Position numbers and translations under genes: made by a program. Positions 24,175-60,215 of a DNA stretch of 64,000 nt are shown one piece after another. Source of the DNA: Gallionella sp. (GTDB lineage Bacteria > Pseudomonadota > Gammaproteobacteria > Burkholderiales > Gallionellaceae); NCBI GenBank assembly GCA_003153155.1, contig PLWV01000017.1, positions 37,932-101,931 of the forward strand, read 5' to 3'. The first letter of the stretch is position 1. Each line of letters starts with the position of its first letter. Below the pieces are notes generated by a model, which had not been told where the DNA came from, ran no database searches, and saw only the letters and a list, made by a program, of their open reading frames with translations.

Positions 24175-24221
24175 GGGAGAATTCAGTATTATGAAGTGGA
24201 GAACCAGCCGGAATTTTATGG

Positions 24222-24264
24222 TGCTGGAGAGAGGAATCGAACCTCCGACCTACGCGTTACGAGA
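24222..24264 (-). tRNA. 3' half of tRNA-Thr(CGT), truncated in the anticodon loop (candidate attachment-site remnant)
   Basis: Minus strand ..CTCGTAACGCGTAGGTCGGAGGTTCGATTCCTCTCTCCAGCACCA; no 5' half follows. Confidence 0.8.
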
Positions 24265-25093: not shown

Positions 25094-25135
25094 GACATAC
25101 ACCCGCACCAATTACCGTTATCGGGTACTCCACTC

Positions 25136-25204
25136 TAATATTCATCAGGAAGCAGCAAACATGTCGATGACATGTGAGCTTCCGTAATAATCCACAGCTT
25201 GTCT
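25136..25204 (-). pseudogene. 3' remnant (copy A) of the 32009-32308 gene family
   Basis: Translation DKLWIITEAHMSSTCLLLPDEY*. Confidence 0.85.
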
Positions 25205-27206: not shown

Positions 27207-27567
27207 TTATAGAATTCCTAAGTATTAATGGCCAAAATAATTCATGTAAGGCACCACCCCCGTTTAAAAGCGGCTTTCTATCTCCGCCGTTCAAGTAACG
27301 CGGGGGGCTTACTGTACTGTACTGCAATGTACCGTTACTGAGGTTAGGTGAGTTATTTCCTCTTGAATTCGTCTCTTACTTCACTACCCATTAGCCTTGT
27401 CACATTCAGTATACCTTCCCGACGGGGGGAGAGTACGTTCGACAATCATCTTCGATAATCAGGGTTCGAATGCTGAGCTTGGCGAATGACCGGCTTCGGG
27501 AAGCGTAAAATCAAAGCCGACTGGCCGGATTGGACGGCACTTCGTCAAGTTCCGCTATCGGGTACTC

Positions 27568-27691
27568 CACACTAATATTCCTCCGGCAGCAGCAAACAGG
27601 TCGATGATCGATCTGCTTCCGTAATGACCCACAGTTTTTCACCACGCTCATTCAGCGGATAGCTGGACATCACTCTATTACCGTTTTCAAT
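27568..27691 (-). pseudogene. 3' remnant (copy B) of the 32009-32308 gene family
   Basis: Translation IENGNRVMSSYPLNERGEKLWVITEADRSSTCLLLPEEY*. Confidence 0.85.
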
Positions 27692-27965
27692 GCCTCTCCT
27701 GCCCGATCCCCGAAACAACAGTTCCTAACACTCCAACAAGAATCTCCATTCCATCTGTCATTAGCTGTATCTGCTCTTCATTGGGTTTGGTCATGCCGAA
27801 CATGGCGAGTTTCTCATCAAGTGGTAGTTCGCCATATTTCGATTGATAATGCGCTACATTCATGGCCAGCAGCCTTGCGCATTCTGCAATGTCTTCCTTG
27901 CTTACTTGCTCAATAAGAAGATCGGCAAGTTTGTTATATTGGTCAAACGTCGATAAATCAGACAT
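27687..27965 (-). CDS. Small hypothetical protein
   Basis: 92 aa ORF, soluble, plausible coding composition. Confidence 0.55.
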   Translation of the reverse strand: MSDLSTFDQYNKLADLLIEQVSKEDIAECARLLAMNVAHYQSKYGELPLDEKLAMFGMTKPNEEQIQLMTDGMEILVGVLGTVVSGIGQERH

Positions 27966-27980
27966 GGAGATTCTCCGAAA

Positions 27981-28496
27981 ATGAAGTTCTACTGTACTCG
28001 ATTCCTTGTACTGCCAGCCAGTCTTGCACTGGTGCTTTCATTCCCTGCATGGGCTTCAGACATGCCCGATCCGTCGCTTACCCCCGGCGCAATCAATCCA
28101 GAAGTAACACAAGCAAATATTCAGCAGACTGTGTGCGTGAAGGGATATACCAAAACGATTCGACCCCCCGCTCACTTCACCAACAAGCTTAAGAAGCGGC
28201 AGATACGCGAATATGGCTATGCTGACAGAAACCCCAAGCATTATGAAGAAGATCACCTGATTGCCCTTTCTATTGGGGGCGCACCTGATGATCCGCGCAA
28301 CCTTTGGCCAGAACCCCGAATCAGCGAGTGGGATGCCAAGAAGAAGGATCGGTTAGAGTTTGTGCTTTATAAGATGGTATGCAGGCAAGAAATACCGCTT
28401 GCAGAAGCTCAGCACGAGATGGCGACAAACTGGATAGAAGCTTGGAAACGGTATGTGCCAAGTCACCAGCATTATCGGTTTAAGAGGGTTGATTGA
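27981..28496 (+). CDS. Secreted HNH-like endonuclease-fold protein
   Basis: Signal peptide ending PAWASD; EEDHLIALSIGGAPDDPRNLWPEP matches HNH-like context. Confidence 0.65.
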   Translation: MKFYCTRFLVLPASLALVLSFPAWASDMPDPSLTPGAINPEVTQANIQQTVCVKGYTKTIRPPAHFTNKLKKRQIREYGYADRNPKHYEEDHLIALSIGGAPDDPRNLWPEPRISEWDAKKKDRLEFVLYKMVCRQEIPLAEAQHEMATNWIEAWKRYVPSHQHYRFKRVD

Positions 28497-28501
28497 CTGA
28501 T

Positions 28502-29182
28502 ATGTGTGGACGCTTTGCATTGAACGAAAATCCCCTCAAGTTTGCCGAATACTTTTACCTATCCGGCAATCCGGAATTCTCGCCTTCCTGGAACATCGCC
28601 CCTTCGACTCGGATATGCACCATCACTTCGGATAAGGAAGGACGCAGACATCTCCACAAGATGAAATGGGGACTCATCCCGTCGTGGGCAAAGGATGCAA
28701 CGATAGGCAACAAGCTCGCCAATGCACGAGGTGAAACTGTTGCCGAGAAGCCATCATTCAGGTCAGCTTTCAAGTCTCGACGCTGCCTCATACCTGCTTC
28801 CGGCTTCTATGAATGGAAGAATGAGAAAGGTGTTAAACAGCCGTGGTATATCAGACTGAAATCAGGCGTTCCGATGGCGTTCGCAGGGCTTTGGGAGGCG
28901 TGGCATCCGGAAGAAGGTGAAACCATCGAGAGCTGCTGCATCATCACTACCGACGCTAACAAGCTCATGGAACCGATCCACGACCGGATGCCTGTTATCC
29001 TTGATCCAGACCAGTGGGCTACTTGGCTGTCCCCGCAAGAGCACCTCGCTGACAAGTTGTTACCCCTGATTCGTCCGCATGATCCCGAATCGATGCAAGC
29101 TTGGCCTGTCACCCGTGAAGTTAACCGTGTCGGGTTGAGGGATGATGCTGGGCTGGTTAAGCCAATTCCTGTGCAAACCTGA
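28502..29182 (+). CDS. SRAP/HMCES (YedK-like) abasic-site-processing protein
   Basis: MCGRFAL (catalytic Cys2), NARGETVAEKPSFRSAFKSRRCLIPASGFYEW, HDRMPVIL. Confidence 0.95.
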   Translation: MCGRFALNENPLKFAEYFYLSGNPEFSPSWNIAPSTRICTITSDKEGRRHLHKMKWGLIPSWAKDATIGNKLANARGETVAEKPSFRSAFKSRRCLIPASGFYEWKNEKGVKQPWYIRLKSGVPMAFAGLWEAWHPEEGETIESCCIITTDANKLMEPIHDRMPVILDPDQWATWLSPQEHLADKLLPLIRPHDPESMQAWPVTREVNRVGLRDDAGLVKPIPVQT

Positions 29183-29185
29183 TTT

Positions 29186-29225
29186 GTTTGACAACAGAAC
29201 GTTCGTTCTCTATGATGTGTCAAAC
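29186..29225 (+). promoter_or_regulatory. Sigma70-like promoter TTGACA-N17-TATGAT with palindrome AGAACG-TT-CGTTCT in the spacer (candidate SOS operator of umuDC)
   Basis: TTGACA 29188-29193; AGAACGTTCGTTCT 29196-29209; TATGAT 29211-29216; outer GTTTGACA/TGTCAAAC arms. Confidence 0.7.
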
Positions 29226-29239
29226 GCTCATCCTGTTCG

Positions 29240-29692
29240 TTGACCATCATGATTCGCACCTTGCAGCAAATTTTCTTCAAGCTACCGGCGATAGGCATAC
29301 GGCCCATCCTAATTCCTCTGTTTGGCCACAATGTTCCTGCCGGATTTCCTTCTCCAGCCGATGATTACATCGAAGGCAGGTTGAGCCTGGACGAGCATCT
29401 GGTTCCACATAAAGATTCAACATTCTTCGTGCGTGCCAAGGGAAACAGCATGATGGGCGCAGGCATATTTGATGGCAATCTTCTGGTGGTCGACAAATCA
29501 CTCACCCCGTCGTCCGGTGACATCGTGATCGCCGTGGTCGATGGTGAGCTAACGGTTAAACGCTTCATCAAGCGTGGCGAGAAAGTCATCCTCAGACCCG
29601 AGAACCCTCGCTACAAGGAAATCGAACTCAAAGAGGGTCAAGAGTTGCAAGTGTGGGGTGTGGTGACCTCCACGGTAAAGACGTTCGTTTAA
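29240..29692 (+). CDS. umuD: UmuD-like S24 autoprotease subunit
   Basis: [15 protein letters not shown] cleavage region, [14 protein letters not shown] Ser motif, VKRFIKRG Lys motif. Confidence 0.93.
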
Positions 29693-29703
29693 CGTCCACT
29701 GCC

Positions 29704-30978
29704 ATGCCGCTCGCGCTCGTTGATTGCAACAATTTCTATGTGTCCTGTGAACGGGTCTTCAACCCCAAGCTGGAGGGTAAGCCAGTCGTCGTGCTATCCA
29801 ATAATGATGGCTGTGCCGTCTCCCGATCCAGTGAAGTAAAGGCGCTCGGCCTCAAGATGGGCGAGCCATGGTTCAAGATGGAAAAACTGGCGAAGCAGCA
29901 TGGCATCATTGCGCTCTCCAGCAACTACAGCCTTTACGGAGACCTGTCCGCAAGGGTGATGTCGATCCTTTCCGACTTCTCTCCAAAGCAAGAAATCTAT
30001 TCCATCGACGAATGTTTTCTTGACCTCGATGGTTTCGAGCCGCAATCACTGATGGCTTACGGCCAGAGGATTCGACAAACCGTGAAGCGCAATGTCGGTA
30101 TTCCTGTTTGTGTTGGCATTGCTGATACCAAGACGCTTGCCAAGCTGGCCAATCACTGTGCAAAGAAAGGACTGGCTGGTGAGAATGGTGTGTGCGATTT
30201 TGGACGGCTGGATGAGCAAGAGCGCAGCGCACTATTTGCGAGCATTCCGGTGGGTGAGGTGTGGGGAGTTGGAAGACGCTTAACCGAAAAACTACTCAAC
30301 ATGAACATCGAAACTATTGAAGACTTGAGAACTGCCAACCAAAAAGCAATTCGAGACCATTTCTCAGTGGTGCTGGAACGCACGGTGCAAGAGCTAAACG
30401 GCATTCCATGTATCGAGTTGGAAGATGCAGGAACACCCCGGCAACAGATCATGGTGTCCCGTTCATTCGGGTCAATGGTGACAGAATTCGATGACCTAGC
30501 TGAATCAGTATCTTACTTTGCCACCAAAGCAGCAGAAAAACTTAGACATGATGGATCCGTTGCAGCCAGTGTATGCGTCTACATCCGCACCAATCCATTC
30601 AAGGAAGACGAGCCACAATACCAGCGCTCAATGATCGTTCCATTGTGTCAGCCAAGCGACGATACGATGGCGTTAATCAATGCAGGGCTCAAAGGACTCA
30701 AGAAAATATTTCGAAGTGGTTTCCGTTACAAAAAGTCGGGCGTGTTGTTGATGGGATTGCAGAATAAAGGTACTGTACAAGCTACGTTATTCGATGACAT
30801 ATCCAAGCAGGGAAAATCAGCCAGCATGATGAGTGTCATGGACACGATCAACCGGAAAATGGGGCAAGGAAGTATGACGATAGCGGCATCGGGTATTAAT
30901 CACCGCTGGGCGATGCGTCGGGACAGAATGTCGCAGAATTACACCACGGATTGGAATGATTTGCCGGAGGCGGATTAG
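29704..30978 (+). CDS. umuC: Y-family DNA polymerase V catalytic subunit
   Basis: [52 protein letters not shown]. Confidence 0.95.
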
Positions 30979-30987
30979 TGCTCGGGT

Positions 30988-31087
30988 ACTCCACGCTAAT
31001 ACTCCTCCGGCAACAGTAAACATGTCGATGATCGATCTGCTTCCGTAATAATCCATAGCTTGTCGCAACAATCATTTAGCGGATAAT
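30988..31087 (-). pseudogene. 3' remnant (copy C) of the 32009-32308 gene family
   Basis: Translation NYPLNDCCDKLWIITEADRSSTCLLLPEEY*. Confidence 0.85.
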
Positions 31088-31649: not shown

Positions 31650-31997
31650 ATGCCATCAGCTAAACATCTAAATTATAGAAGGTTGAGATTCGAACCGGAT
31701 GTCCCAAGCGAACTGTTCGATGAGGAAGAAACTGAAATACTTCGTACCTATGGATATTGGCTGGCGGCACTGATGCGCGGAAGAATTGAGCCAGAAACGC
31801 TAGCCCAAGAACACTTTGTAGAGGTCTGCAAAGGCAAGGTCGAGCCTCACACCCAAATCGAACGAGTCTGGGTTCGCTACATAAAGAGAAAACTTTGGGA
31901 GGCAGAGAATCCAAACTATGTTGGACTCGAAAATGCAGTCTTCGCGGATTTAGGAATAACGGGAAAGGGATGGGGAATTTACGGGCACTTTCGGTAA
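31650..31997 (+). CDS. DUF413/MaoP-like protein
   Basis: LRTYGYWLAALMRGRIEPETLAQEHFVEVCKGKVEPHTQIERVWVRYIKR resembles DUF413. Confidence 0.7.
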   Translation: MPSAKHLNYRRLRFEPDVPSELFDEEETEILRTYGYWLAALMRGRIEPETLAQEHFVEVCKGKVEPHTQIERVWVRYIKRKLWEAENPNYVGLENAVFADLGITGKGWGIYGHFR

Positions 31998-32008
31998 GCT
32001 ACACCACG

Positions 32009-32308
32009 CTAATACTCCTCTGGCAACAGCAAACACGTCGATGACCGATCCGCTTCCGTGATGATCCACAACTTGTCACCGCGATCATTCAGAGCATAGC
32101 TCGACATCACTCTATACCCTTCCTCAACGCTACGCTGATTCTCCAGCCGGTCTTCCTCAGGAACGCATCCCCAATCACCGTTAGCATGGCGAGACAATAA
32201 GCTCCACGCTTCAATACCGTTTTCCTTCATCGCCTGAATCGCTCCTGGCGTTGCAACAATCTGACCTAACTTAAACAGCATTTTGTTCTCCGGAAATGAT
32301 GCCGACAT
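32009..32308 (-). CDS. Hypothetical protein, full-length parent of the dispersed 3' remnants (copy D)
   Basis: 99 aa; C-terminus RGDKLWIITEADRSSTCLLLPEEY repeated in four other loci. Confidence 0.8.
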   Translation of the reverse strand: MSASFPENKMLFKLGQIVATPGAIQAMKENGIEAWSLLSRHANGDWGCVPEEDRLENQRSVEEGYRVMSSYALNDRGDKLWIITEADRSSTCLLLPEEY

Positions 32309-32430
32309 GGCGCTGCATCTTCCGGTCGATCACTGCCGCTTTAGCAACTGAAAAATATTTACCTTATAGCCGTTGCCCTACCCTTGGTTCGGTTGGATGG
32401 TGTCCGTGTGGTTAAGACAAAGGAGCACAC

Positions 32431-32625
32431 ATGAAATCGCTAACAACCGAGCAGAAGCAAGAAATGGTGGAAATCATTAAAGAAGAGTACGGCAACGCGC
32501 TAGATTTTGATGAGTTCACCAATGCCCTGCTCGGCTTGCTGGAAGACGTGCCCGGATTCGAAACTGCAAAGGAAAGCACTATCAACAATCTCACTCAAAC
32601 TTTATGGAGCCAATATCATGACTAA
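32431..32625 (+). CDS. Small hypothetical protein, overlapping the next gene
   Basis: 64 aa; stop overlaps start of 32618 CDS by 8 nt. Confidence 0.7.
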   Translation: MKSLTTEQKQEMVEIIKEEYGNALDFDEFTNALLGLLEDVPGFETAKESTINNLTQTLWSQYHD

Positions 32626-33007
32626 GAAAATCACAGTACCAGCAGCTAAATCAGCAACCACAAAAGCACCAGCAGCTAAAGCAGCACCAACCGCAGTAAA
32701 GAAAACTGCACCAGCGGCAGCAACTCCTGCTACTGCAACCAAACCAGCACCTGCTGTCGTCGAACCAAAAAAGATCGATATGAACAAACAGTCGATCAAG
32801 GATGCCATCGCGAAAGGTAAGGAATTGCTCAAGGAAGGCAAGACCAAGGCCGATGTGGCAATGGTTATTTTCAGCGCCCTCAAGGACGAGGACAAAGATA
32901 CCGTCATCGCCGCGTTTGTCCAAGGTGCAAGCCTTACCGAAAAAGGCTCGGTTACGTACTGGTACAACTGCAAACGCAAGGCCAGGAAAGTATCTCCGAA
33001 AGCTTAA
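32618..33007 (+). CDS. Ala/Lys/Pro-rich histone H1-like tail + C-terminal globular domain, putative nucleoid-associated protein
   Basis: MTKKITVPAAKSATTKAPAAKAAPTAVKKTAPAAATPATATKPAPAVVEPKK then KADVAMVIFSALKDEDKDTVIAAFVQGASLTEKGSVTYWYNCKRK. Confidence 0.75.
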   Translation: MTKKITVPAAKSATTKAPAAKAAPTAVKKTAPAAATPATATKPAPAVVEPKKIDMNKQSIKDAIAKGKELLKEGKTKADVAMVIFSALKDEDKDTVIAAFVQGASLTEKGSVTYWYNCKRKARKVSPKA

Positions 33008-33229
33008 TCTTTTGAGTGGGCATCCGAGTTGATCTTGGATGCCCAATTCTGAATGAGCTACTGTTTGAGGTCATTGGAATAATTTGTAATCAGAAGCGCA
33101 TCTCCAATATTGACAACGCTTCCTTACTATCAAGCCTTCAACTAGCCCCCATATGGTCTGAGGAAAAGGACAAAGCTATTGAGCTGGTGAAGCGGTTGTT
33201 AACTGGCTGATTCACACCGCTGGAAACAC

Positions 33230-33721
33230 TTACAATCTTGCTTGGTCGATAAGTCCTGCGTCAATTAATTCGTCTTGAGCTGAAAGAATATCGCCGGTTC
33301 CAACGTATTTGTTGAAGATTTTGTCAATTGGTCCACCATTGTCAATACTAATATGTACTACTCCTTTTATCAACAACAGTCCTAATAAATGTGTTACAGC
33401 TGCATTACACATAAACACTCCATCCATTTCTTTTATTATCTTGTCGACACCTGAAAGTGATTTTATTTTTGTCTGAGAGCAAAAAACACCACCACCAACA
33501 ACCGAATAAGGAGCACCTTTAAGTGATATCAGGTTTGTGTTAGCACAACGAAAATAGCCAGTCACCCTTCCAAATTGAACAGGAATAGAGGATTCGGCAA
33601 CGTTACGCAGAATAAGATTACCGTCCACATCAACAATACCATCAGGTCTAATGGTATAAGTTGTGATATTGTGATCATCAAGCCAAACTTTGATTTCTTC
33701 GTGTGTGTGTAGCATGCTCAT
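33230..33721 (-). CDS. Phage-like hypothetical protein sharing a C-terminal module with its neighbour
   Basis: C-terminus IFNKYVGTGDILSAQDELIDAGLIDQARL. Confidence 0.75.
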   Translation of the reverse strand: MSMLHTHEEIKVWLDDHNITTYTIRPDGIVDVDGNLILRNVAESSIPVQFGRVTGYFRCANTNLISLKGAPYSVVGGGVFCSQTKIKSLSGVDKIIKEMDGVFMCNAAVTHLLGLLLIKGVVHISIDNGGPIDKIFNKYVGTGDILSAQDELIDAGLIDQARL

Positions 33722-34254
33722 TACAATCTTGCTTGGTCAATAAAACCTGCATCAATCAATTCATCTTGAGCTGATAATATATCGCCAGTTCCAACGTATT
33801 TGTTAAAGATATCGCCAAGAGTTTCTACATTGCCAGTCTGTCCTGGTACCATAACACCCTTAATGCCCATAATACCTATGTGGGTTATTCCTGAAATTTC
33901 AAACAATCTAAGAAGGTGTGTGGCATTTTGAAAAACCCGTACACTCCCCACATAATTTGCTTGCTTGAGACCCTTACACACTTTTGACATATTGTAAGGA
34001 GCTGCCGTCTCTAGTAATTTAATCTGTTCAGATTCTGGTAGTTTCTTGGAAAGGTCCATCATACCGTGAACCAAAGGGTCCAACTCATGGGGGAACACAA
34101 ACAATATTTTTTCCAAAGCAACATAGACAGAACTAAGCTCGTCAAGGGCTTCCTTTAAAAGAGGAGTGGAGGTCATTAATCCTTCCATATAGTCTTTTCC
34201 TTGTTGAGTAATCTGCTGTTTTTTTAATTTAGCTTGTCCCATTTGCGTCTCCAT
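33721..34254 (-). CDS. Hypothetical protein with same C-terminal module, unrelated N-terminus
   Basis: C-terminus IFNKYVGTGDILSAQDELIDAGFIDQARL. Confidence 0.75.
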   Translation of the reverse strand: METQMGQAKLKKQQITQQGKDYMEGLMTSTPLLKEALDELSSVYVALEKILFVFPHELDPLVHGMMDLSKKLPESEQIKLLETAAPYNMSKVCKGLKQANYVGSVRVFQNATHLLRLFEISGITHIGIMGIKGVMVPGQTGNVETLGDIFNKYVGTGDILSAQDELIDAGFIDQARL

Positions 34255-34311
34255 TTGTTGATTTACAATAGAAACACTATCTCACAATCCTCCTAACAAA
34301 GGGGTCTAACC

Positions 34312-34476
34312 TCAGTAGTCTTCCGGTAATAAGAAGGTCGTGTATGAACGGTCTGCTTCCGTGATAATCCATATACGGCCTTCCGGAAGATTATAAGACC
34401 TCAACAACCGTGTTCCTTCGTTTAACGCTTCGTTGTTAGCTTGCCAGTCTTCTTTACATACGTCACCCCAATCGTG
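34312..34476 (-). pseudogene. Divergent truncated paralog (copy E) of the 32009-32308 family
   Basis: Translation HDWGDVCKEDWQANNEALNEGTRLLRSYNLPEGRIWIITEADRSYTTFLLPEDY*. Confidence 0.85.
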
Positions 34477-34477
34477 T

Positions 34478-34542
34478 TTTATGTGGCGGCCTACTGGTAC
34501 AACACGCGACGCAAGGCCAAGAAATCATCTTCGAAAGCTTAA
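34478..34542 (+). pseudogene. 3' remnant of a paralog of the 32618-33007 gene
   Basis: FYVAAYWYNTRRKAKKSSSKA* versus VTYWYNCKRKARKVSPKA*. Confidence 0.8.
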
Positions 34543-34649
34543 CCAACCGCCTTGGTATCCACGTCAAACCGGGATGCCAACCTTTTTCCGGATAGACCTC
34601 AGTAAAAGTTGTATATGGGTGGAGAGGAGAAACATTTACTGAGGATGAT

Positions 34650-37364
34650 TTAATAGCATTTCCTTATAAATGGGCAATCGTAACTTGATCTAAGCGTTAC
34701 CGCATCCGCCGAACGATCTGTATAAAGGAATAAATCGATATCAAGGTCTGGAACGGTTTGTTTTAACGCCTTCAACCTTGCCAGAACCTCATTGGTGGGC
34801 GGGCATGAATGAGGAACGAAGGGTCGCCTATTTGCATTTTCTACATCGGATCTCTTGCAAGGTATATCGTGATTGATTAATAGGTCTGCAAATCTCTGTG
34901 CCGATACACCATTCACTTGGCGTGACAGTCCGGCCTTTGATTCTCTCCAAGCCGAACACAACAGCTGCCGCAATCGTTGAATGTCAGGGTTAATTTTCTT
35001 GAGGTATTTGCCATGCTCCTTCGTCAGGAAGGAGTGGGCCTCGACCGATGATGCAAAGGCCTCATAGTCGCCCGGTGTTTTCAGGCACACATGCTTGTCC
35101 TGCGTGTAGTCATCCCACGCTTCCCGAATTTCGACAAATTGCTCTAAAGAATGCCACGGGCGCGTACTGAATATGAGGTGCTGGTGCTTCTGCGAAAAGC
35201 CCACGCCCAATGGCTGGCGCTTCCAGTCGTATTCCATGTTCAGCTTCTTGGAAATAACCTTTTCCACCAGATCGGCATCATGTTCCACCATATCGCGAAT
35301 GCCTGTCATGGCCTCCACCCTAATCAATGAATCAGGGGTACGGCTGAAAAACATACGGATGATTTCGTTGTTCTGGTCTTCCGTTGACTCGCATTCTGGC
35401 GGCGTGAATATGCCTCCCTTGGCCAATACGGTTATTTTGTCCTCATCGTCTGGACTGGTAGCCACTCCCGGCATCAATGTCGCTTGGCCTCGGGTTCGCC
35501 AGCCTAATGGCTTGCGCAAGAAGTGCTTGGTTTCAAGAACCGATGGCAGGCCCGTCAGTAGCTCCCGCGATTGCAGGAACAGCTTGGATAATTCCCCTTC
35601 CTGTGCCCGTTTGATTTCGTCCTTGCCGGCATTGGAAATGAACCCGTCAGTCGTGCAACTGAAAACGCAGGTGTCACGGTCAAGGTTGTTGATGATCTCG
35701 CCCATAATGGCGCGAGTAAATGACGTGATGTACGATGCGAAAAACGGGTTGGTGATGGCACTCGGTGGAAGTATTTTCGTAGCACGGTCACGCATGTCAT
35801 ACACCCGCTTGGGCCTCAGCCCTTGTGCTGTCTTGCCATAGGTGGAATTGCTGATTTCCTTCCAGAACAGGCTCTCAAGCTTTTTCGTTCCTGCATTCTT
35901 ACGCCGTTCCAGGCAATCCTTTATAAACAAGCCAAATATTTTAATGTCGGGGTCGGACGGGACGATGACTCCCTTGTTTATCTTGATTGTGGCACCGAGC
36001 TTGCGCGCAACGAATAGCTCCGGGGCTGAACAATAGCTCTTGCCGGTGAGCGGAAAGATCAAACCGTGATTGGTACGGACAGGCAGTGTCGGATACCTTG
36101 TCTCAGCTGGAAACTCAAAATCTACGTTGGCAAACCCCAGTGTCGTCGGCGTAAACAATTCGATGCCAGGATCATCATGAACCTCATGCCATTTCGGCAT
36201 GCCGATGAGTGACATCGCGGTTGGATAGGCGCTGGATAAGTCGTAGTCCGTCCAGTCATCCTCGAAGCATGGCCCAAACCAGAATTGCTCGTTGCGGCCG
36301 CCGTGGTAGCTCTCGGTTATGAAGTCGATATACCACGCCACCTCCTCCATATCGACGACCTTTTTATTCTTGACGAAGTATCCCTTTTTCTTGTCGAAGT
36401 ACCGTTCAGTGACCTCCTCCTTGCCGAGAATAGTGAGTGCATCTTCTGCCAAATTTTCCTTCCAGCTTTTCTGAAGCAGATCGACACCGATGGAAGTCAG
36501 GGTAACGGGCACTTTCTTCTTGCCGGTGATCTGCTCGAATTGGTCGATGATCTTTTCGATGTAGCGAACACAGATCGTTGCATCGTTTAGCGCATACCGT
36601 TTGAACAAGTCCCAATGCTCGACCCGAACCTTATCCATGTTGCGGATCATGTCCTTGTGCTTGGCCTCGTCGGGGTCTAATTGCATCTTCTCCTGGCCGA
36701 CCAGCTTGCCTATTTCCTTGAGGCTTTTTGAAGCCTGCGGAGTGAGCAGCATCGTGTCCCTGAATAATAGGTTCAGCGATGTGCTGGCACTGCCATCCGG
36801 ATAATCAACCCTCAGGTGAGCGCCGCTGTCGATCGAGATGAAAGTATTGCGAACACTGGACAGCAAATGAGTCAGGTCTTGAAAGTCGGCGAATGCCGGT
36901 ACATCAGCCCGAGTGAAATGGCCTACGAGGTAAATCTTGGTTGGTATATTTTTAATTTGATGGTCACGAGCACCAAGGCCAAGAGCAAACACGACGAATT
37001 CACCAAGGGTCATGCGCTCATCACCATCAGGACAGCAAATGCCTTGCCACTCATGACCATCGCTGGTCTTGGCATGAAACTGGTAGGATAAAACCCGGTA
37101 CTTCGCCTCACCAGCTACAATTTGCTCGCGACTGACATGGTATTCAGGCGTTTTAAACTCAGTGTCAAAGCCGATAATCAGGTAGGGTTCAGAAGCAACG
37201 GCAACGGCTTCGGCTGCTTTCTTGCGTGTGCGTTTGGTTTTGGCTTTTGCAGGGATGAAATCTGTACTGGCTACTTCAGTTTCTTGCGGCGTTTTATTGC
37301 CTATCAGTTCGGTTGGCTCTGCAAAGTACTTAACCTTGTTGGAGCTTTTTAGTTCATCCGCCAT
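34650..37364 (-). CDS. Family B DNA polymerase with 3'-5' exonuclease domain (candidate primer-independent piPolB)
   Basis: 904 aa; ExoI FDTEF, ExoIII YALNDATI, motif A DYDLSSAYPTAM, motif B KEISNSTYGKTAQGL, motif C CTTDGF. Confidence 0.85.
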   Translation of the reverse strand: MADELKSSNKVKYFAEPTELIGNKTPQETEVASTDFIPAKAKTKRTRKKAAEAVAVASEPYLIIGFDTEFKTPEYHVSREQIVAGEAKYRVLSYQFHAKTSDGHEWQGICCPDGDERMTLGEFVVFALGLGARDHQIKNIPTKIYLVGHFTRADVPAFADFQDLTHLLSSVRNTFISIDSGAHLRVDYPDGSASTSLNLLFRDTMLLTPQASKSLKEIGKLVGQEKMQLDPDEAKHKDMIRNMDKVRVEHWDLFKRYALNDATICVRYIEKIIDQFEQITGKKKVPVTLTSIGVDLLQKSWKENLAEDALTILGKEEVTERYFDKKKGYFVKNKKVVDMEEVAWYIDFITESYHGGRNEQFWFGPCFEDDWTDYDLSSAYPTAMSLIGMPKWHEVHDDPGIELFTPTTLGFANVDFEFPAETRYPTLPVRTNHGLIFPLTGKSYCSAPELFVARKLGATIKINKGVIVPSDPDIKIFGLFIKDCLERRKNAGTKKLESLFWKEISNSTYGKTAQGLRPKRVYDMRDRATKILPPSAITNPFFASYITSFTRAIMGEIINNLDRDTCVFSCTTDGFISNAGKDEIKRAQEGELSKLFLQSRELLTGLPSVLETKHFLRKPLGWRTRGQATLMPGVATSPDDEDKITVLAKGGIFTPPECESTEDQNNEIIRMFFSRTPDSLIRVEAMTGIRDMVEHDADLVEKVISKKLNMEYDWKRQPLGVGFSQKHQHLIFSTRPWHSLEQFVEIREAWDDYTQDKHVCLKTPGDYEAFASSVEAHSFLTKEHGKYLKKINPDIQRLRQLLCSAWRESKAGLSRQVNGVSAQRFADLLINHDIPCKRSDVENANRRPFVPHSCPPTNEVLARLKALKQTVPDLDIDLFLYTDRSADAVTLRSSYDCPFIRKCY

Positions 37365-38223
37365 TGCCTCTCACCCTTTGATATATGGTTGCACTGACTA
37401 GCACGCTGGTCTTCCAGTTTGTATCGTATCAGGCGGTAGCTCCCATCATACTGAAAATTCAAAACTGGAATTCCACCATTTAAAGCGGTGACGGGTTCAT
37501 TGTGTTGGGGTCAAGAGTAATGACATAAATACATCTGTCCAATAATTGATTCACCGTCTCGCGTCGGGACAAGCACGAACACAAGCCAATATGACGAATA
37601 ACCAGACATACCCTAACTGCTGGTGAGAGTAGTACGGAACAGATTGCGTCGAGCCGCAATTTCAAGCCAGCCGGATGATGCCGGTCAAAGTTTTGATGAC
37701 TTAGTTGTGGATGCGTCGTTGATGTCGCCAGCTTGGGAATTACGCTTCTTTTACCTTCCACAAAATTGTAACAAACCGTCAGTAATGACAGCGCAGCGAA
37801 CCCGATTTGAGTTGTGCGTGGATGGAAAATCCACTACGGGGCTGGTCATTCTTTTATAGTTTGAATGTGGTTCGAAATAAGATTGAATTGTGTGGTTGAC
37901 CACGAGCGCAGTGAGTGAGGCAACTGCACAATTCACGTGCGCAGCACGAACCGGATGTGCCTGAAGCAAATATTCAACATGGAATTTCGTCTGCGAATTG
38001 CGTGTTAGCCCCATTGGAACAAACCCACCGATCTCGCTCCAATTCAAGTGACATGCAGTCGCCTTCGGCTCCTGGTTGAACGCGCAAATTGCACTTCCGC
38101 TGCGCGTCGTTTATTTGCACCTTCAACGTGTCCTTTACCAATTCATCTCGGGATGCACCCCAACCCCCGAATACCATAGCCTATGCGGCCTAATTCAGTT
38201 GTCCTGATTGGTTTACGTCCACC

Positions 38224-39369
38224 CTACTCCACCACCGCTGTCGCATGTAGCCGATTCAGCACATCAACTGCCAAGCGCGACGCATCGCTGGGTGCCAAGT
38301 CGGCGTAATAGCTGGCCGTAATGTCCACGGTTGCATGACCCAATATCTTGGACACGTAGTGAATTGGCACGTTGTTCTGTACCAGCCGCGATGCACAGGT
38401 CTTTCTAAGGTTATGGAATGAAATGCCGTCAATGCCAGCCCGATCGCATGCACTACGGAACGCTTTCGGTGAATATTTGCGCGGCCCGCCTGACTTGCAT
38501 TCGAAGATGTAAACCTGGCTTGTCGTCTTGCCATCGAACCTGCGCTGCAATACCTCACGGGCACGGTGGGTCAGCTGCAACATCGACTGGTTGCCAACCT
38601 TGGGGCGATACAGCTGAACCTCGTTGCGATCCAGCCGCACATCTTTCCATTGCAACTTGGACAACTCGCTGTGGCGGCATCCGAGGTCGAGCAGCAGTAC
38701 CGCGAAGTCGTAGGCGTCATGTTTCATCCGGCGCATTTCATCAGTCTGGTTTCCTACGCTGGCAAGACCACGAGCAATCCTATCCGGATGCAGTTCTTCC
38801 AGCAGCCGTGCTTCTTCCTCAATGGACAGGAACCGGATGCGCTTGCGGTCTGGCTTGATTGCATTGTCTCGCTTGATTTCGGCCAGGTTGAGCTCTGGTA
38901 CTTCGTACCCCAATTTCCGGCAAAGCTTGATGATGCTGTTCAGCGTCAGCAGTTCATACAGGATCGTGCCGTTGGCGTTCTGCTCTTTCCGGCGTTCAAG
39001 GACAAGGCGCTGTATGTCCTTGGTTTTGAGCTCGTGCAAATAAGTGCTGCCATCAAAACCGAAGCAAGCCACACGGGTCTGAGTGCCGGGTTGATTCTTT
39101 GACCCCAACAGCTTGTTTGCTCGCGCCTTGATGTTGCCGTATTCGCTGTTACCTCGCTTACTGTCGAGGAATTGTTGTATGGCCGCTTTTAACGTGATCG
39201 GCTCGGCCTTGTCGCTAAGCGATGCCTCTATCGCCTTCCTGCGTTCACCATCCTCCACCTTCTTGGCAACCGTCTTGTTGCCGGTGCCGGTTGAACCGAA
39301 ATGTTTCTTTCCTTTTAATTGGAAAGAGTAATACCAATTGGGACTTGATGCGTGTCTGACTATGCTCAT
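38224..39369 (-). CDS. Tyrosine recombinase/integrase
   Basis: LLLDLGCRHSELSKLQWKDV; SFHNLRKTCASRLVQNNVPIHYVSKILGHATVDITASYYADL. Confidence 0.93.
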   Translation of the reverse strand: MSIVRHASSPNWYYSFQLKGKKHFGSTGTGNKTVAKKVEDGERRKAIEASLSDKAEPITLKAAIQQFLDSKRGNSEYGNIKARANKLLGSKNQPGTQTRVACFGFDGSTYLHELKTKDIQRLVLERRKEQNANGTILYELLTLNSIIKLCRKLGYEVPELNLAEIKRDNAIKPDRKRIRFLSIEEEARLLEELHPDRIARGLASVGNQTDEMRRMKHDAYDFAVLLLDLGCRHSELSKLQWKDVRLDRNEVQLYRPKVGNQSMLQLTHRAREVLQRRFDGKTTSQVYIFECKSGGPRKYSPKAFRSACDRAGIDGISFHNLRKTCASRLVQNNVPIHYVSKILGHATVDITASYYADLAPSDASRLAVDVLNRLHATAVVE

Positions 39370-39709
39370 GTTTTTCTCCTAATTTAACGATGCCACTTGA
39401 TGTGGCCTCATATCTATTTATGGGAGTTGCGAGCATGCGTGTTCAATTCGGAAAGACAACGCTGGATTCACCATTGGCGCGGAGTCTGGGCTGGTCAGGC
39501 TTGACCCGATTAGTGGCTGGAATGAAGATTTGGTGTAAAAGAATTGGCTGTTTAAGGATTATGACGTCCCAGTTTGGGGGCCGGATCATTTTCAGGCCAT
39601 CGTTCCCCAAATGTCCGGCGACATTACCAAGAACCGTATCGAATCGTAGAAACACGGTATGGCCACGGTTATTGCGCCAACAAACCATGAGACGGAGCAA
39701 AACGGAGCC

Positions 39710-39753
39710 TATCGGTTTACTCTTATATATCTATCGGATTACTGTTATATATA
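39710..39753 (+). repeat. Tandem 22-bp direct repeat upstream of the integrase
   Basis: TATCGGTTTACTCTTATATATC followed by TATCGGATTACTGTTATATATA. Confidence 0.8.
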
Positions 39754-40033
39754 AGGACAGATACTAAACAGCTATCCTCATAAAAGGCGCATTGGGTGCC
39801 GGTAGAAGGCGATTCGAGGCAGGGTTGGCTCGAATAATGTTAGCCCGTTGATGGTTTGGATTGTTTTTGACGCTTGGCGGTTGATGGAGATGACGGCAAC
39901 ATCGTTATATCAAAGTTACACGGTGTAAAAACGCCCGTAGTCTCTGAGTTATCTTGTGAAGGACTGTTGCCATGGCCGGGAGATAATTAAATTGGTTTAG
40001 ATGTGTAGCAGAAAAAAACTTAATTTGGTAACT

Positions 40034-41563
40034 TCACTTAGGTGGTAGGGGCAAGCGTTTATTTGATAACTGGCTCTCAATTAGCCTAAGGTCAGAAATC
40101 ACTTCGGCAGCTGATTGCTCTAGTGCTTTTCGCCCCCTTTGCTCGTCTGCATCAAGCCACGCGCGAACATTGTCTAAAAGTTGTTGCTTAGCTTTTCTGC
40201 GAGCTTGCTTATCGGCATGAACAAAAACTTCTTTTGTTTGTTCCGCAAATTCGGCTGGATAGTATTGCTCGAATTGCGCTTTGCTAAAGCAGCCAAATCT
40301 ATCTGACTTCCACGACGGATAGCGACCCTGAAGTCGTGTGATTATTTCAGAACCAGCACTATCGCCATCAACTCGCACCCAAGCCGCATCTCGATACGCT
40401 TCTTCCAAATGTGTGAAAAGTACTAAACGGTGAAAGTCATCGAAAGTTGGTCCAACTTGACTCACTCCACCTACAGCAAGGGTTCGAACACGTGCTAGTT
40501 TTGGAGCAAACCAAGGAATAAGGTAGTCACGAATAATGCGCTCGGCTGATGACTCTTCAAGAATCAACCAGCCATCCCAAAGATCAAAGTCAGAAAAAGA
40601 GTAACCGAGTTCCCGTAGCACCTCAAGCCGAGCATCAACAGTTGGTTCAACAGCTCGAATTGTCGCAATAGGCGGCAACTTTCCAAATACAGAGGTAATG
40701 TTGTAAAGCCTACTATTTACTGCTGCTGCGAGGTGACGCACTACAATGTTTGAATGTGTCGAGACTACAAATTGGTTTGACTTGGAACTCTCTACAATTA
40801 AATCAAGCAATGCCTTGAGGGCTTGTGGATGAAGATCGTTTTCAGGTTCTTCAATCAGAATGAGCTTCCCTTCCGAGAGCGCCAAATCGGCCAAAAGTGC
40901 CACGATATTTGGTACGCCTTCACCCATTTGGTCGATAGGGATGGTCTGACGATCCGGCAAATAAACACCAGGACGCAGCCCATTGAGAGATGGTATGGCT
41001 GTCACCACGAACCCGAGAATTTCCTTGCAAGTATTGCTATAGCGTTCGTACTCAGGAAACCCTGGGTTTGCGAGCCTGGAAAGCCTTGCAGCAAGATTCG
41101 ACATATCTGCGTTGACTCGTAGCGCCATTTCATTTCTAACGTCTTCTTGATAGTTAGAAGTTTTGCGCTTTGATAGATAAGGTACTACAAAATGGAGCGG
41201 TTCAACATTTTTCAGAGCTTTAGTTCTATGGGGGGTCGAGTCGTCAGGCCTCTGAATAGTGATGGCAATTTCACCGCTACTTCTATCTTGTGATTTCATA
41301 TCAACCCCGAGAACTCCCGATCCCGTATAGCCAAATTCTCCTTTCATATCACCCAAACCAATCATGATCTGAGCGGCACCTGTGCTAACACGTACGTCAG
41401 GATAAGGGTTTCCGTAACTTTCCTGAATAAGTAGCAATGCCCTAAGGATAGAAGATTTACCCGCATTGTTTGGGCCAATAAGGACGTTGATTTGGTCAAG
41501 CTCTATTAGCTCCATAATCTCGAAGGAGCGGAAGTTTTTGAGTTCAAGAGAAGTAACACGCAT
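40034..41563 (-). CDS. OLD-family-like AAA ATPase with C-terminal TOPRIM-like region
   Basis: LKNFRSFE..INVLIGPNNAGKSSILRAL Walker A; KLILIEEPENDLHPQ; ILEESSAERI and VRVDGDSAG TOPRIM-like. Confidence 0.8.
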   Translation of the reverse strand: MRVTSLELKNFRSFEIMELIELDQINVLIGPNNAGKSSILRALLLIQESYGNPYPDVRVSTGAAQIMIGLGDMKGEFGYTGSGVLGVDMKSQDRSSGEIAITIQRPDDSTPHRTKALKNVEPLHFVVPYLSKRKTSNYQEDVRNEMALRVNADMSNLAARLSRLANPGFPEYERYSNTCKEILGFVVTAIPSLNGLRPGVYLPDRQTIPIDQMGEGVPNIVALLADLALSEGKLILIEEPENDLHPQALKALLDLIVESSKSNQFVVSTHSNIVVRHLAAAVNSRLYNITSVFGKLPPIATIRAVEPTVDARLEVLRELGYSFSDFDLWDGWLILEESSAERIIRDYLIPWFAPKLARVRTLAVGGVSQVGPTFDDFHRLVLFTHLEEAYRDAAWVRVDGDSAGSEIITRLQGRYPSWKSDRFGCFSKAQFEQYYPAEFAEQTKEVFVHADKQARRKAKQQLLDNVRAWLDADEQRGRKALEQSAAEVISDLRLIESQLSNKRLPLPPK

Positions 41564-41643: not shown

Positions 41644-43422
41644 ATGGCGCTCATGAATAGTCTAATTGAACTTGACATCCCCCAAGCCCAACGGCCTCGG
41701 TATAGCCAGGTTGATCTACAGAAACATTCTGGGGCCACTTATACCCCAGAAGTTTTCGCAGTATTTGTTGCCAATCAAATGATACAACTTGCCAAGCTGC
41801 CCAAGAGAGGGAAAATCCGCATTCTTGATCCAGCTGTAGGTGATGGCGCTTTACTGGATGCGCTGATTAAGCGCTTGCCTGCGGCTGATCGTAAGCGTGT
41901 TGAAGTAATTGGCTACGATACTGATCTAAACGCTATCAAGGTCGCATCGCAACGCCTTGGTGAGGACTTTCCTGGTCTAGATATTCGCCTTGAACAGAAG
42001 GATTTTCTCGAACACGTCCTAAGCTTAGGAGAGCGCGATGATTTGTTCTCTTCGAAGGATTGCCAAGAGCCATTCCATTTAGTGATCGCCAATCCGCCTT
42101 ATGTTCGCACGCAGATTATGGGTACTCAACAAGCCCAGCAGTTGGCGCTACGCTTTGGCCTAACTGGCCGCGTAGATTTGTATTACCCTTTTCTTTTGGC
42201 GATTTCCCAAGTTCTGGTCGCTGGTGGTATTTCAGGTGTGATTACCTCGAACAGGTTCATGACTACAAAATCTGGTCAGGCTGTGCGACGCGCATTGCTG
42301 TCCCGCTTTCAGATTGTGCATGCGTGGGATTTGGGTGATACGAAACTTTTTGATGCTGCTGTTCTGCCTTCGGTTCTGCTGGCTCGGGGAATAACAGACT
42401 GCCAACATCCAAGCGTCGATGGCATAGCGTTTTCCACAATTTACGAAACCCAAGATTCCTTCCAAGAGATTGCTCATGATCCTCTGGCAGCCTTGGTCGT
42501 TGAGGACAATACAGTTGTAGAAATATCCGATGGCCGACGATTCCGAATTCGACATGGTATATTGGACAACGGAGGTAGCCCAGATGGTCTTTGGCGCGTC
42601 GGGACTCAATCCACTGATCAATGGCTGGCAACGGTAGAAGCCAATACTTGGGATACCTTCAGGCGCATAGGCAAAATTCGTGTGGGCGTTAAATCTACCG
42701 CTGATAAAGTTTTTATTCGTAATGATTGGGCTGATTTGCCTGAAGGCGAGCCTGAATTGTTACGTCCACTGATAACGCGCCATCACGCACGTCGTTTCAA
42801 GGCTCTATTTCCTGCGAAGGCCAAACATGTCAAAGCTATTCTTTACCCGCATGAGATGACAGAAAGCGGACGAGGCGCTGTGGATTTGAGTCATTACCCA
42901 AAAGCTAAACGTTACCTTGAGCGGCATCGAGATGTGTTGGAGTCTCGAACCTATGTTATTGAAGCTGGACGTCAATGGTACGAGTTGTGGGTTCCACAGG
43001 ATCCCTCAGCGTGGTCATCTCCCAAATTGGTGTTTCCCGATATTTCTGAAAAACCGATTTTCTGGATCGATACCGAAGGTGGTGTAGTTAACGGTGAGTG
43101 CTATTGGATGCGATGCGAAAAAGATGGTGATGAGGATTTGTTATGGCTGGCTCTTGCTGTTGCCAATTCGACGTTTATTGAAGCGTTCTACGACCACCGA
43201 TTTAATAACAAGCTATACGCTGGACGCCGTCGTTTTATCACTCAATATGTGGAGAAATTCCCATTGCCTGACCCAGCTCGAGAGGATACTCAAGTCCTTA
43301 TTGCGATGGTAAAATCTATCTACGCAAAAATTCCATCCAGAGAAGCTGATGATTTGGCTGCAACTCTGGACGAGCGAGTGTGGCGAGTGTTCGGCTTAGA
43401 GTTCGAAAAAATCTCGGGGTAA
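41644..43422 (+). CDS. N6-adenine DNA methyltransferase
   Basis: ILDPAVGDGALLDALI SAM motif; VIANPPYVRT catalytic NPPY. Confidence 0.93.
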   Translation: MALMNSLIELDIPQAQRPRYSQVDLQKHSGATYTPEVFAVFVANQMIQLAKLPKRGKIRILDPAVGDGALLDALIKRLPAADRKRVEVIGYDTDLNAIKVASQRLGEDFPGLDIRLEQKDFLEHVLSLGERDDLFSSKDCQEPFHLVIANPPYVRTQIMGTQQAQQLALRFGLTGRVDLYYPFLLAISQVLVAGGISGVITSNRFMTTKSGQAVRRALLSRFQIVHAWDLGDTKLFDAAVLPSVLLARGITDCQHPSVDGIAFSTIYETQDSFQEIAHDPLAALVVEDNTVVEISDGRRFRIRHGILDNGGSPDGLWRVGTQSTDQWLATVEANTWDTFRRIGKIRVGVKSTADKVFIRNDWADLPEGEPELLRPLITRHHARRFKALFPAKAKHVKAILYPHEMTESGRGAVDLSHYPKAKRYLERHRDVLESRTYVIEAGRQWYELWVPQDPSAWSSPKLVFPDISEKPIFWIDTEGGVVNGECYWMRCEKDGDEDLLWLALAVANSTFIEAFYDHRFNNKLYAGRRRFITQYVEKFPLPDPAREDTQVLIAMVKSIYAKIPSREADDLAATLDERVWRVFGLEFEKISG

Positions 43423-44442
43423 CGGAATCTGGATTTTGCCGTTGATGACTTTACCCTCGAAGCGTCTAAATCTACTAAAGAAATCTGCTCCGGTAGTGAC
43501 AAAAAGATGAGTCAAGGTCACAGTCACTCCGTCCGTTGCCGCATAAAACATAGCGTACCGAGTGTCACAATGGCGCGGGTGGATGTTTCCTATCTGTTGA
43601 ATATCCAATTGCTCTTCGCTGCTTGGCTGAACGAGTCCTAAATCAATAGTGGGCGATGTTTGTAACTTCACTTCCAACAGCTGATGTCGTACATCGGGGA
43701 ATTGTCCTTTGTCTTCGTAACGGTTGTATCCCAGCCGTTCACAAACTAAGCGATGGAGTGATGCTCCACGATTGCGTTCTTGATCCATGCCAGGGTCAGC
43801 AAACGTCTGCCCGACGAGATGAGAAAGTCTCTCAAATATTTCCCTGATCGGAAGTAACGTACCGCTTTCAGGTTCTTGAATTGGGCTGGTTTGGGGATTG
43901 AATATTGCGTTGGCTTTAACGTACGGCATCATGGCATCAGTGTCTTGCGGCGATATCAACTCGTGCGTGGTGGTGCCGGTTTCAAGTCGTGCTTGATACT
44001 TGGTGGTGATTGTTCCAGTTGTATCTAACAACGCAAGTTGTTGACCATTTACGACTTTCACTCTGCCAATTACATCGTCTTCTGAAACTTCAATAATTGC
44101 GTAACGGCGCGTTGGTGAAAGCTCTTCATTCCAGATTTGTAGGTTTAGTGACTTTTGCGCGTAGGTGTCAAGTTGTTGGCCTAAAAAGCGAGGCTGTGTC
44201 TTTTTAAATGACCTTGGAATTGGATAGCCAAGTGCCTCGCACACTGCTGTTTTGACGACTTTTGATCGTGTACGCAACGCAAGGCCCGAAAGGGACAGAC
44301 CTCGCAATCCCTCATTTAGCAACGTCTCCAAGTGCTGCATAGGAATCCAATAGTCAGGGTCGCCGACTTCAATATTGGCGTAGATGTCTTTGCCGGATGA
44401 TGCTATGGCTTGCTTGTAATCGGAGGTTTTTTTCTCGGTCAT
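43396..44442 (-). CDS. Putative type II restriction endonuclease (PD-(D/E)XK)
   Basis: FPDVRHQLLEVKLQTSPTIDLG motif; convergent and overlapping with methyltransferase. Confidence 0.8.
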   Translation of the reverse strand: MTEKKTSDYKQAIASSGKDIYANIEVGDPDYWIPMQHLETLLNEGLRGLSLSGLALRTRSKVVKTAVCEALGYPIPRSFKKTQPRFLGQQLDTYAQKSLNLQIWNEELSPTRRYAIIEVSEDDVIGRVKVVNGQQLALLDTTGTITTKYQARLETGTTTHELISPQDTDAMMPYVKANAIFNPQTSPIQEPESGTLLPIREIFERLSHLVGQTFADPGMDQERNRGASLHRLVCERLGYNRYEDKGQFPDVRHQLLEVKLQTSPTIDLGLVQPSSEEQLDIQQIGNIHPRHCDTRYAMFYAATDGVTVTLTHLFVTTGADFFSRFRRFEGKVINGKIQIPLPRDFFEL

Positions 44443-44992: not shown

Positions 44993-45149
44993 CGTCATTC
45001 GCTTGCTGATACCCTCGCCAACCATGCATCTGGCTGGCTTGTACTTTTTTCGCCTAAATTCAAGGGGCTGATTTCAACGTCCCGGATTTTCACCAGCAAA
45101 ACCTTCTCCATTGTTGGGACTATCCATCAATCTTGAGCACTGTACAACG

Positions 45150-45290
45150 GGATCGTTGCCTGTTGACCTCTTTTCGAAATTGTTGGATTGTGGCCATACT
45201 GGAAAATCTGTTAGCCTTGCCAGCCTTGGTGTAGGTCGTCAGATGGGGTATATATACGGCACTGTTACACCATCGGTTATGCCGCACCCT
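45150..45290 (-). repeat. Left copy of an inverted repeat pair (partner 59848-59968)
   Basis: Reverse complement TGGTGTAACAGTGCCGTATATATACCCC..CGACCTACACCAAGGCTGGCAAGGCTAACAGATTTTCCAGTATGGCCAC. Confidence 0.85.
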
Positions 45291-45510
45291 TCTGAGTGCC
45301 ATTGACCGCAATTTGCGTGAAGCGGACGGTCAGCATTCGAGTTGTTGTCCGACATGGATTCTAACCAGAGAGCAGGTCCTCCAGAATGCTTAGATATATC
45401 TTGCCATGATGCCAATAGTGAATTGTGTCTATAATCGGCACCTTGTAACCGTAGCCCTCCGTGTTACCTGAAAAGGGGAATTGGCGCATTTAAGCAAATG
45501 GAACTCACTA

Positions 45511-46530
45511 ATGATTAAATACTCTTTCTGGAACAACAAGGGCGGAACAGGCAAAACTAGTCTTGCCTTTCAATCGATATCAATATTTGCGGAACTCCAT
45601 CCAGATAAAAAGATTCTTGTTGTTGATCTTTGTCCCCAAGCTAATTTATCTGAACTCCTATTGGGCGGATTGACTGGTTCAGGTAGCCATAATCTCAATG
45701 CGTTACATAGCAATACACCGAGACGGAGTATTGGAGGCTATTTTCAAGATCGCCTGCCTTCTCCGTTTCTCATGCCGACCCTAACTGTTGCTAACTACAT
45801 ATCGAAACCCCATTCGTATAACGAAAATATTCCTGCCAATATAGATTTGGTGGCTGGTGACGCACTTGTTGAATTGCAGTCCAATGCAATCTCGACACTT
45901 GCAAATACCCAAATTCCTGGAACAAATACTTGGCTAAAAATTATAGACTGGCTAAACGATTTCGTCGCTCAGGTCCAGAATGAGTATGATTACCTCTTTG
46001 TTGATGCAAACCCAAGTTTTTCCATTTATACGCAGATAGCGATCGCAGCAACCGATTCGATGATTCTTCCAGTTATGGCCGATGATTCGTCTCGTCGAGC
46101 CGTTCAAAATGCAATTGCGCTAGTTCAGGGATTAAATTTGCCGTCTCCAATATACAAACAGCACAACTTTGCTTCACAGTTGAATGCCGCAGGACGGCTG
46201 CCACCACGATTCCATTTGTTTCCAAAAAACAGACTAACGCAATACATGGGGCCCGCATCTGCTTATCATGCAGTCCTAACTGAAATCGACACAATGATTC
46301 AAGCTGTTCAGCAAACGAACCCGAACGTATTTACCTTTGCAAACCTTGCTGATGGAGTGACAGAAATTAGAGATTTTCAGACCACAGGAGTTGTGGCTTT
46401 TGCTTGTGGCCTTCCATTTACGCGTATGCATGCAGGAAGGTATCGTATGCCGGGAAGAGTGGTGCAGGTCAAAGCTGAATATCTGCAAAACTGTATTGAT
46501 GCCATGAATGCGATGGTTGCCAAGCTCTAA
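45511..46530 (+). CDS. ParA/SIMIBI-like P-loop ATPase
   Basis: MIKYSFWNNKGGTGKTSLAFQS deviant Walker A; YLFVDANPSFS. Confidence 0.9.
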   Translation: MIKYSFWNNKGGTGKTSLAFQSISIFAELHPDKKILVVDLCPQANLSELLLGGLTGSGSHNLNALHSNTPRRSIGGYFQDRLPSPFLMPTLTVANYISKPHSYNENIPANIDLVAGDALVELQSNAISTLANTQIPGTNTWLKIIDWLNDFVAQVQNEYDYLFVDANPSFSIYTQIAIAATDSMILPVMADDSSRRAVQNAIALVQGLNLPSPIYKQHNFASQLNAAGRLPPRFHLFPKNRLTQYMGPASAYHAVLTEIDTMIQAVQQTNPNVFTFANLADGVTEIRDFQTTGVVAFACGLPFTRMHAGRYRMPGRVVQVKAEYLQNCIDAMNAMVAKL

Positions 46531-54641: not shown

Positions 54642-54792
54642 GCTAATTTCTCCCTAGGCCGTTGGTGCATCAAAATAAGATACATAGTGTTAATTATAGA
54701 CTGTGCCTGCTAAATGTTTAATTTCGACAGTAAATTGAATGACTCCTTCTAGCCGATTTCTGCCAGTCATGCAGCCAGACTCACTGTCGATT

Positions 54793-59968: not shown

Positions 59969-60215
59969 TTGAATTTCGCCCATGAATATATTTTCATATA
60001 GGTGAATCATTTTTGGACTAGAGCAACAGAGAATTTTCGACACACATTCTCCAGACAATCGTGCCATTACGCTGCCCGAAACCGGACGCTCGTGAACTTC
60101 GGCAAATGGCACACACCAGCAGGTCATGACATGAAATATGCCGCCGTAAAGCGGTCGTTCACCTCAGCCTACTTGGCACTGTTCTACTGTCATGCAGCCA
60201 GACTCACAGCCGATT

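Follow-up and report, generated by a model that had tools for sequence, protein, structure and literature searches.

A predicted pipolin in Gallionella sp. and a tandem sibling element with a different replication gene

Background

The founding paper on the primer-independent family B DNA polymerases (piPolBs) is reportedly that of Redrejo-Rodriguez et al. 2017. The published sequence features of integrated pipolins are a piPolB, att repeats at a tRNA gene and tyrosine recombinases (PMC7385651, PMC9710591); the pipolins also include plasmids of S. epidermidis and L. fermentum, and the role of piPolB in these elements is still called unclear (PMC9710591). Here we analyze a 64,000-nucleotide stretch of a Gallionella sp. 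contig (PLWV01000017.1, positions 37,932 to 101,931; hereafter, the window), which encodes a 904-amino acid (aa) family B DNA polymerase (PolB) within an integrated element, denoted element A, that is followed by a sibling, element B. Coordinates beyond 64000 are given as window-equivalent positions, those with the prefix C15 follow the contig numbering, and the genome searches covered samples drawn from larger groups.

Like the integrated pipolins of E. coli (PMC7385651), element A combines a piPolB that has a TTDG motif C with tRNA-associated att repeats, at least one tyrosine recombinase and variable cargo including restriction-modification genes. Unlike these pipolins, it carries a polymerase of another clade (about 31% identity to L091, the E. 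coli piPolB homolog used for comparison), targets tRNA-Thr(CGT) rather than tRNA-Leu, contains UmuDC and SRAP cargo, and has a tandem sibling that lacks piPolB. The polymerases of alpha- and betaproteobacterial pipolins (L035, L042, L046, L050, L052 and others) are 51-57% identical to PolB, and several of these elements are bracketed by tRNA 3'-end repeats; L042, L050 and L052 additionally encode an integrase and a 166-aa protein related to those of element A, although the integrase is just 47-48% identical, whereas L046 and L050, in which both att copies lie within the analyzed stretch, are smaller (about 8-11 kb). The closest pipolin chassis found outside this genome is that of Methylotenera (L099), with 67% identity for the integrase, 66% for the 166-aa protein and 57% for a 99-aa protein, but its piPolB comes from the other clade and is about 31% identical to PolB. 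The piPolB plasmids of Staphylococcus, Limosilactobacillus and Fusobacterium (e.g., NC_005006 and NC_004566) share the xTDG motif C followed by a TR motif; unlike element A, they are circular, several of them possess relaxase or recombinase-family genes, and the polymerase identity is about 24-28%. Finally, the replication protein of element B, which has no counterpart in element A, belongs to the CyRepA1-type plasmid replication proteins but, unlike these, resides in a chromosomal, tRNA-targeted element.

Results and discussion

The 904-aa polymerase belongs with the piPolBs

The PolB open reading frame (ORF) is intact, and all the motifs quoted in a preliminary description of the window were recovered, namely ExoI (FDTEF), ExoIII (YALNDA), motif A (DYDLSSAYPTAM) and motif B (KEISNSTYGKTAQGL); ExoII is HFTRAD. 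The family assignment cannot be attributed to chance because the protein matches Pfam DNA_pol_B_2 (2e-13) and its homologs align across nearly the whole length, with identity up to 57%. Motif C (CTTDGF) lacks the first Asp (TTDGF) and had been described as atypical; the motif itself stands but the qualification does not, since an xTDG motif C is present in all 57 long (full-length) homologs that were selected for comparison from the 126 PolB relatives found in a scan of species genomes (54 TTDG and one each of TIDG, STDG and ITDG). The homologs from plasmids of Staphylococcus, Limosilactobacillus, Helicobacter and Fusobacterium likewise lack this Asp, and its absence is reported as a hallmark of primer-independent PolBs, which are nonetheless active (Kazlauskas et al., PMC7544198). 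Judging by these alignments, the TTDG motif C is the norm for the piPolB family and not an oddity. The polymerases of phi29, PRD1, Cp-1 and T4 contain DTDS in this position, so that the 904-aa protein lacks the DTDS signature of protein-primed PolBs. The region downstream of motif C comprises 332 aa in PolB, compared to a median of 328 aa among the homologs and about 118 aa in phi29. For the presence of TPR2 and the absence or reduction of TPR1, proposed earlier as a check, the comparison covered motif spacing: motifs A and B are separated by 127 residues in PolB, 134 in phi29 and 136 in the E. coli homolog, and motifs B and C by 71, 75 and 71 residues, respectively.

In the phylogenetic tree, PolB groups with homologs from Zwartia and from metagenome-assembled genomes (MAGs) of Rhodocyclaceae, Comamonadaceae and another betaproteobacterium (Shimodaira-Hasegawa-like approximate likelihood ratio test support 97-98), and this betaproteobacterial group is nested within an alpha/betaproteobacterial piPolB clade, with the E. 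coli-type clade being separate and adjoining. The phylogeny, proposed earlier as a check, yielded no firm placement in the protein-primed or replicative phage clades; the 904-aa protein is placed, on sequence, among the piPolBs and outside those clades. A single piPolB clade to the exclusion of five other enzymes was not rejected by the approximately unbiased (AU) test (p-AU 0.159), which does not by itself prove monophyly. PolB is best regarded as a candidate for primer-independent (de novo) synthesis.

The predicted PolB structure (mean predicted local distance difference test score 91.9) has the phi29 polymerase as the closest solved structure, and the PolB profile aligned with phi29-type polymerases as far as motif C; a sequence search of the PDB produced no match. 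The best plasmid matches are from small plasmids of Fusobacterium and Staphylococcus. Weak, partial matches were detected in six Microbacterium tectiviruses, no close relatives were found in the viral contigs searched, and PolB was not detected in any of the other 398 genomes in the order sample.

Element A is inserted in a tRNA-Thr gene

The tRNA 3' remnant previously noticed at 24.2 kb comes from tRNA-Thr(CGT), of which it is the 3' end, and represents att1, a 45-nucleotide (nt) direct repeat that forms the left border of element A. An exact 45-bp copy, att2, lies on the same contig starting at C15:104410 (window-equivalent 66510 is the end of element A), and a third copy with one mismatch, att3, is located within an intact tRNA-Thr(CGT) starting at C15:140859. 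All three copies have the same orientation, and no occurrences of the 45-nt core are expected in shuffled sequence. Within the window, ARAGORN predicted no tRNA and only a tmRNA (13542-13909). The 42.3-kb polymerase-bearing element A is followed in tandem by the 36.4-kb element B (to window-equivalent 102959) and then by the intact tRNA-Thr gene, and the region from 24 to 61 kb has a reduced guanine-cytosine (GC) content (mostly 36-52%, down from about 57%). The related locus L028 corresponds to an empty site, where the same tRNA is directly followed by the cation-efflux gene that lies next to att1 in the present genome, with the other chromosomal flank on the far side of the tRNA. Repeats of a tRNA 3' end, 45-54 nt in length, also bracket eight further piPolB loci, one of which (L046) uses the same tRNA-Thr.

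The presence of a piPolB flanked by att-like direct repeats at a tRNA gene and of at least one tyrosine recombinase, along with the empty site in L028, indicates that element A is an integrated pipolin that is flanked by 45-bp repeats and occupies the tRNA-Thr(CGT) 3' end. The pipolin reading put forward at the outset is thus borne out by the phylogeny, motif C, the att repeats, the empty site and pipolin-type neighbors.

Two tyrosine recombinases

The recombinase close to the polymerase, TyrRec2 (Pfam phage-type integrase, 2e-22), had been described as the next gene. It is indeed a tyrosine recombinase, but two small ORFs intervene, and the type of integrase found near piPolB in other species is not TyrRec2 but the right-end integrase that adjoins att2. 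Among 120 genomes of the family, TyrRec2 is found in this genome only, with one copy in each element, and no homolog was detected in the other 119 genomes at an E-value of 1e-60. The right-end integrase is 67% identical to that of the Methylotenera pipolin and 47-52% identical to those of L042, L050, L052, L048 and L069. In the order sample, it was identified in two other genomes only, G310 (75%) and G372 (70%); the class sample contained none beyond this genome, and there were no close relatives in the viral contigs searched. Both element B and this conserved integrase lie outside the 64-kb window.

The replication gene looks exchangeable

Elements A and B have in common both recombinases, two small genes and the att ends. 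At the DNA level, they match at 27686-28494 (93%), 32009-32982 (88%), 38240-40005 (86%), 64503-65622 (window-equivalent; 80%) and the att ends; the block that contains piPolB is replaced in element B by a slot with a single 1071-aa ORF. The product of this ORF matches the NCBIfam model NF042913 (CyRepA1) over residues 387-974 with 385 bits, against a curated cutoff of 200, and also matches the herpes origin-binding helicase family, with a weak PrimPol match N-terminal to it; two distant relatives were found in the order sample.

The integrases of G310 and G372 adjoin related small chassis genes. G310 carries a 906-aa primase-helicase-like protein, the N-terminal region of which resembles that of the element B protein (24% identity over 253 aa) and which has neither an NCBIfam CyRepA1 call nor a Pfam match; in G372, the contig ends before any replication gene. 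In L099, a kindred integrase accompanies an E. coli-type piPolB. Joining the element A integrase with the integrases of PolB's own relatives was rejected (p-AU 0.0015), as was joining PolB with the L099 polymerase (p-AU 4e-98); the groups in these two tests were chosen after inspection of the first trees. Given this conflict between the integrase and polymerase trees, the CyRepA1 protein in the element B slot, and the G310 and L099 loci, the replication gene looks like an exchangeable module on a common integrase/att chassis. The adjacent piPolB and CyRepA1 elements suggest that such elements can swap the replication gene, and the chassis is probably compatible with unrelated modes of replication initiation. 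We lean towards the view that a single chassis bears interchangeable modules, namely piPolB in element A, CyRepA1 in element B, the primase-helicase-like protein in G310 and a second-clade piPolB in L099, so that "pipolin" would denote a state that is entered or left via a one-block swap.

A model for element A and its alternatives

We propose, with a probability of roughly 80%, that element A is an integrated pipolin which replicates as a circle via its piPolB, with the polymerase being an exchangeable module. Under this model, the tyrosine integrase would excise the 42-kb att1-att2 segment as a circle; piPolB would then copy the circle in a template-dependent manner, without a separate primase or terminal protein, while its exonuclease proofreads, and the circle would reintegrate at the tRNA. 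The remainder of the element would be cargo, including the SOS polymerase, restriction-modification and other probable defense genes. The best argument for piPolB as the replicase is that the same slot in element B holds a plasmid replication protein. Several considerations weigh against the model: the entire explanation is based on sequence, element A can also be described as an island in which the polymerase is mere cargo, the deepest branching among the piPolBs is unsure, and the tandem order of A and B rests on one 30-contig draft assembly.

The main competitor of the replicase role is one in damage tolerance, with PolB being repair cargo and the element either copied by the host machinery or moving only with the chromosome. 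This role has been put forward as putative (PMC9710591), and it would fit the SRAP, UmuD and UmuC genes in the cargo of element A and the similar genes near piPolB in L095, L100 and L101; we nevertheless consider it unlikely because the CyRepA1 protein in the corresponding place of element B suits a replication slot and piPolBs are found on small plasmids as well. Somewhat less doubtful, albeit still not favored, is the possibility that both elements represent generic genomic islands with integrases of one family and acquire replication genes as cargo, so that "pipolin" describes the current cargo only. The association of the same chassis with three different replication proteins in B, G310 and L099, and the conflicting trees, fit this interpretation, but the occurrence of related integrases and the 166-aa gene beside piPolB in L042, L050, L052, L048 and L069 is no single accident. 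Such generic islands would be compatible with the proposed pipolin model and would alter the meaning of the pipolin class. That PolB is a protein-primed or phage-type enzyme of a prophage or linear plasmid appears highly improbable: the fold and profile are closest to the phi29 type and there are the tectivirus matches, but TTDG in place of DTDS and the much longer region after motif C are at odds with such an origin. No terminal-protein or virion gene was recognized among the element proteins scanned, and with this result and the wrong motif C, a prophage or linear plasmid was rejected. A casposon was rejected as well, given that the Pfam scan of element proteins detected no Cas1 and that the recombinases are of the tyrosine type.

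Chassis genes and cargo

The principal features of the two elements are listed in Table 1.

Table 1. Coordinates of the features of elements A and B
Feature	Position	Strand	Remarks
Element A (pipolin)	24219-64000, on past the window to att2		att repeats, GC drop, A/B DNA homology
att1, left border of element A	24219-24263	-	45-nt direct repeat of tRNA-Thr(CGT) 3' end
Cargo: ORF, SRAP (28493-29182), UmuD-like (29240-29692), UmuC (29653-30978)	27981-30978	+
99-aa chassis gene	32009-32308	-	conserved in pipolins L099, L098, L112 and L095 as well as element B and G310
166-aa chassis gene	32507-33007	+	lysine/alanine-rich; conserved in L099, L069, L050, L048, L052, L042, element B and G310
Exchanged replication block of element A	32983-38239	.	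5.26 kb; piPolB and small ORFs; no DNA match to B
Two ORFs with similar ends, within the exchanged block	33230-33721, 33721-34254	-	no family match
piPolB-clade family B DNA polymerase, 904 aa	34650-37364	-	retains intact exonuclease and polymerase motifs
Pair of short overlapping ORFs, 93 and 98 aa, separating PolB from TyrRec2	37480-37761, 37751-38047	-	no family match
TyrRec2, second tyrosine recombinase, 381 aa	38224-39369	-	common to element B, 90% aa identity
Cargo, probable defense: AAA ATPase	40034-41563	-
Cargo, probable defense: type II methyltransferase	41644-43422	+
Cargo, probable defense: type II restriction enzyme	43396-44442	-
Right-end integrase gene fragment (3' part)	54793-55332	-	bounds cargo block
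Second right-end integrase gene fragment (3' part)	60216-60494	-
Right-end integrase, full gene, 383 aa	C15:102398-103549 = L029:5399-6550 (window-equivalent 64467-65618)	-	adjoins att2, just to the right of the window
CyRepA1-family replication protein, 1071 aa, in the counterpart slot of element B	L030:2145-5360	-	single ORF of the 3.2-kb slot

The 3'-terminal 85-115 bp of the 99-aa gene, which comprise its stop codon and extend some 15 nt further, are present in three further copies in element A and one in element B (the copies in A are at 25121-25224, 27558-27661, 30982-31085 and 31995-32098), and each borders a cargo block, namely a STAND-like ATPase, SRAP-UmuD-UmuC, and GGCT-DUF413. It seems that cargo was stacked immediately downstream of the 99-aa gene and that the 3' end of this gene was duplicated in the process. 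A similar pattern is seen with the right-end integrase, the 3' part of which is duplicated at the DNA level (54766-55287, 60189-60485 and window-equivalent 64454-64955), the two additional fragments bounding one block of TPR-protein genes and another that contains FIST and GGDEF/EAL genes.

The UmuC, UmuD and SRAP proteins encoded near piPolB here and in loci of the other clade (L095:13932-16659, L100 and L101) are 36-54% identical. Both elements encode ThiF/E1-like proteins, together with DUF6527 in A (50657-54196) and with a multiubiquitin protein in B (L029:11727-13805); these loci are possible ubiquitin-like conjugation systems. The cargo of element A also includes a DUF6119/TIGR04141 "sporadically distributed" protein (46604-48208) adjoining a ParA-like ATPase (45481-46530). 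Elements A (45076-45279) and B (window-equivalent 91371-91574) share a 204-bp stretch with 99.5% identity, which hints at a recent exchange between the two elements because this identity far exceeds the 80-93% of the other shared blocks.

Implications

Elements A and B form a naturally matched pair that share recombinases, att sites, small genes and stretches of DNA with 80-93% identity and differ in the replication gene, and thereby allow one to ask directly whether piPolB does for A what CyRepA1 does for B. The PolB clade additionally offers candidates for primer-independent enzymes, which are of interest for whole-genome amplification. If the proposed model is correct, piPolB would be the replicase of the element and pipolins would be defined by an exchangeable module, which would change how these elements are counted and how their spread is traced.

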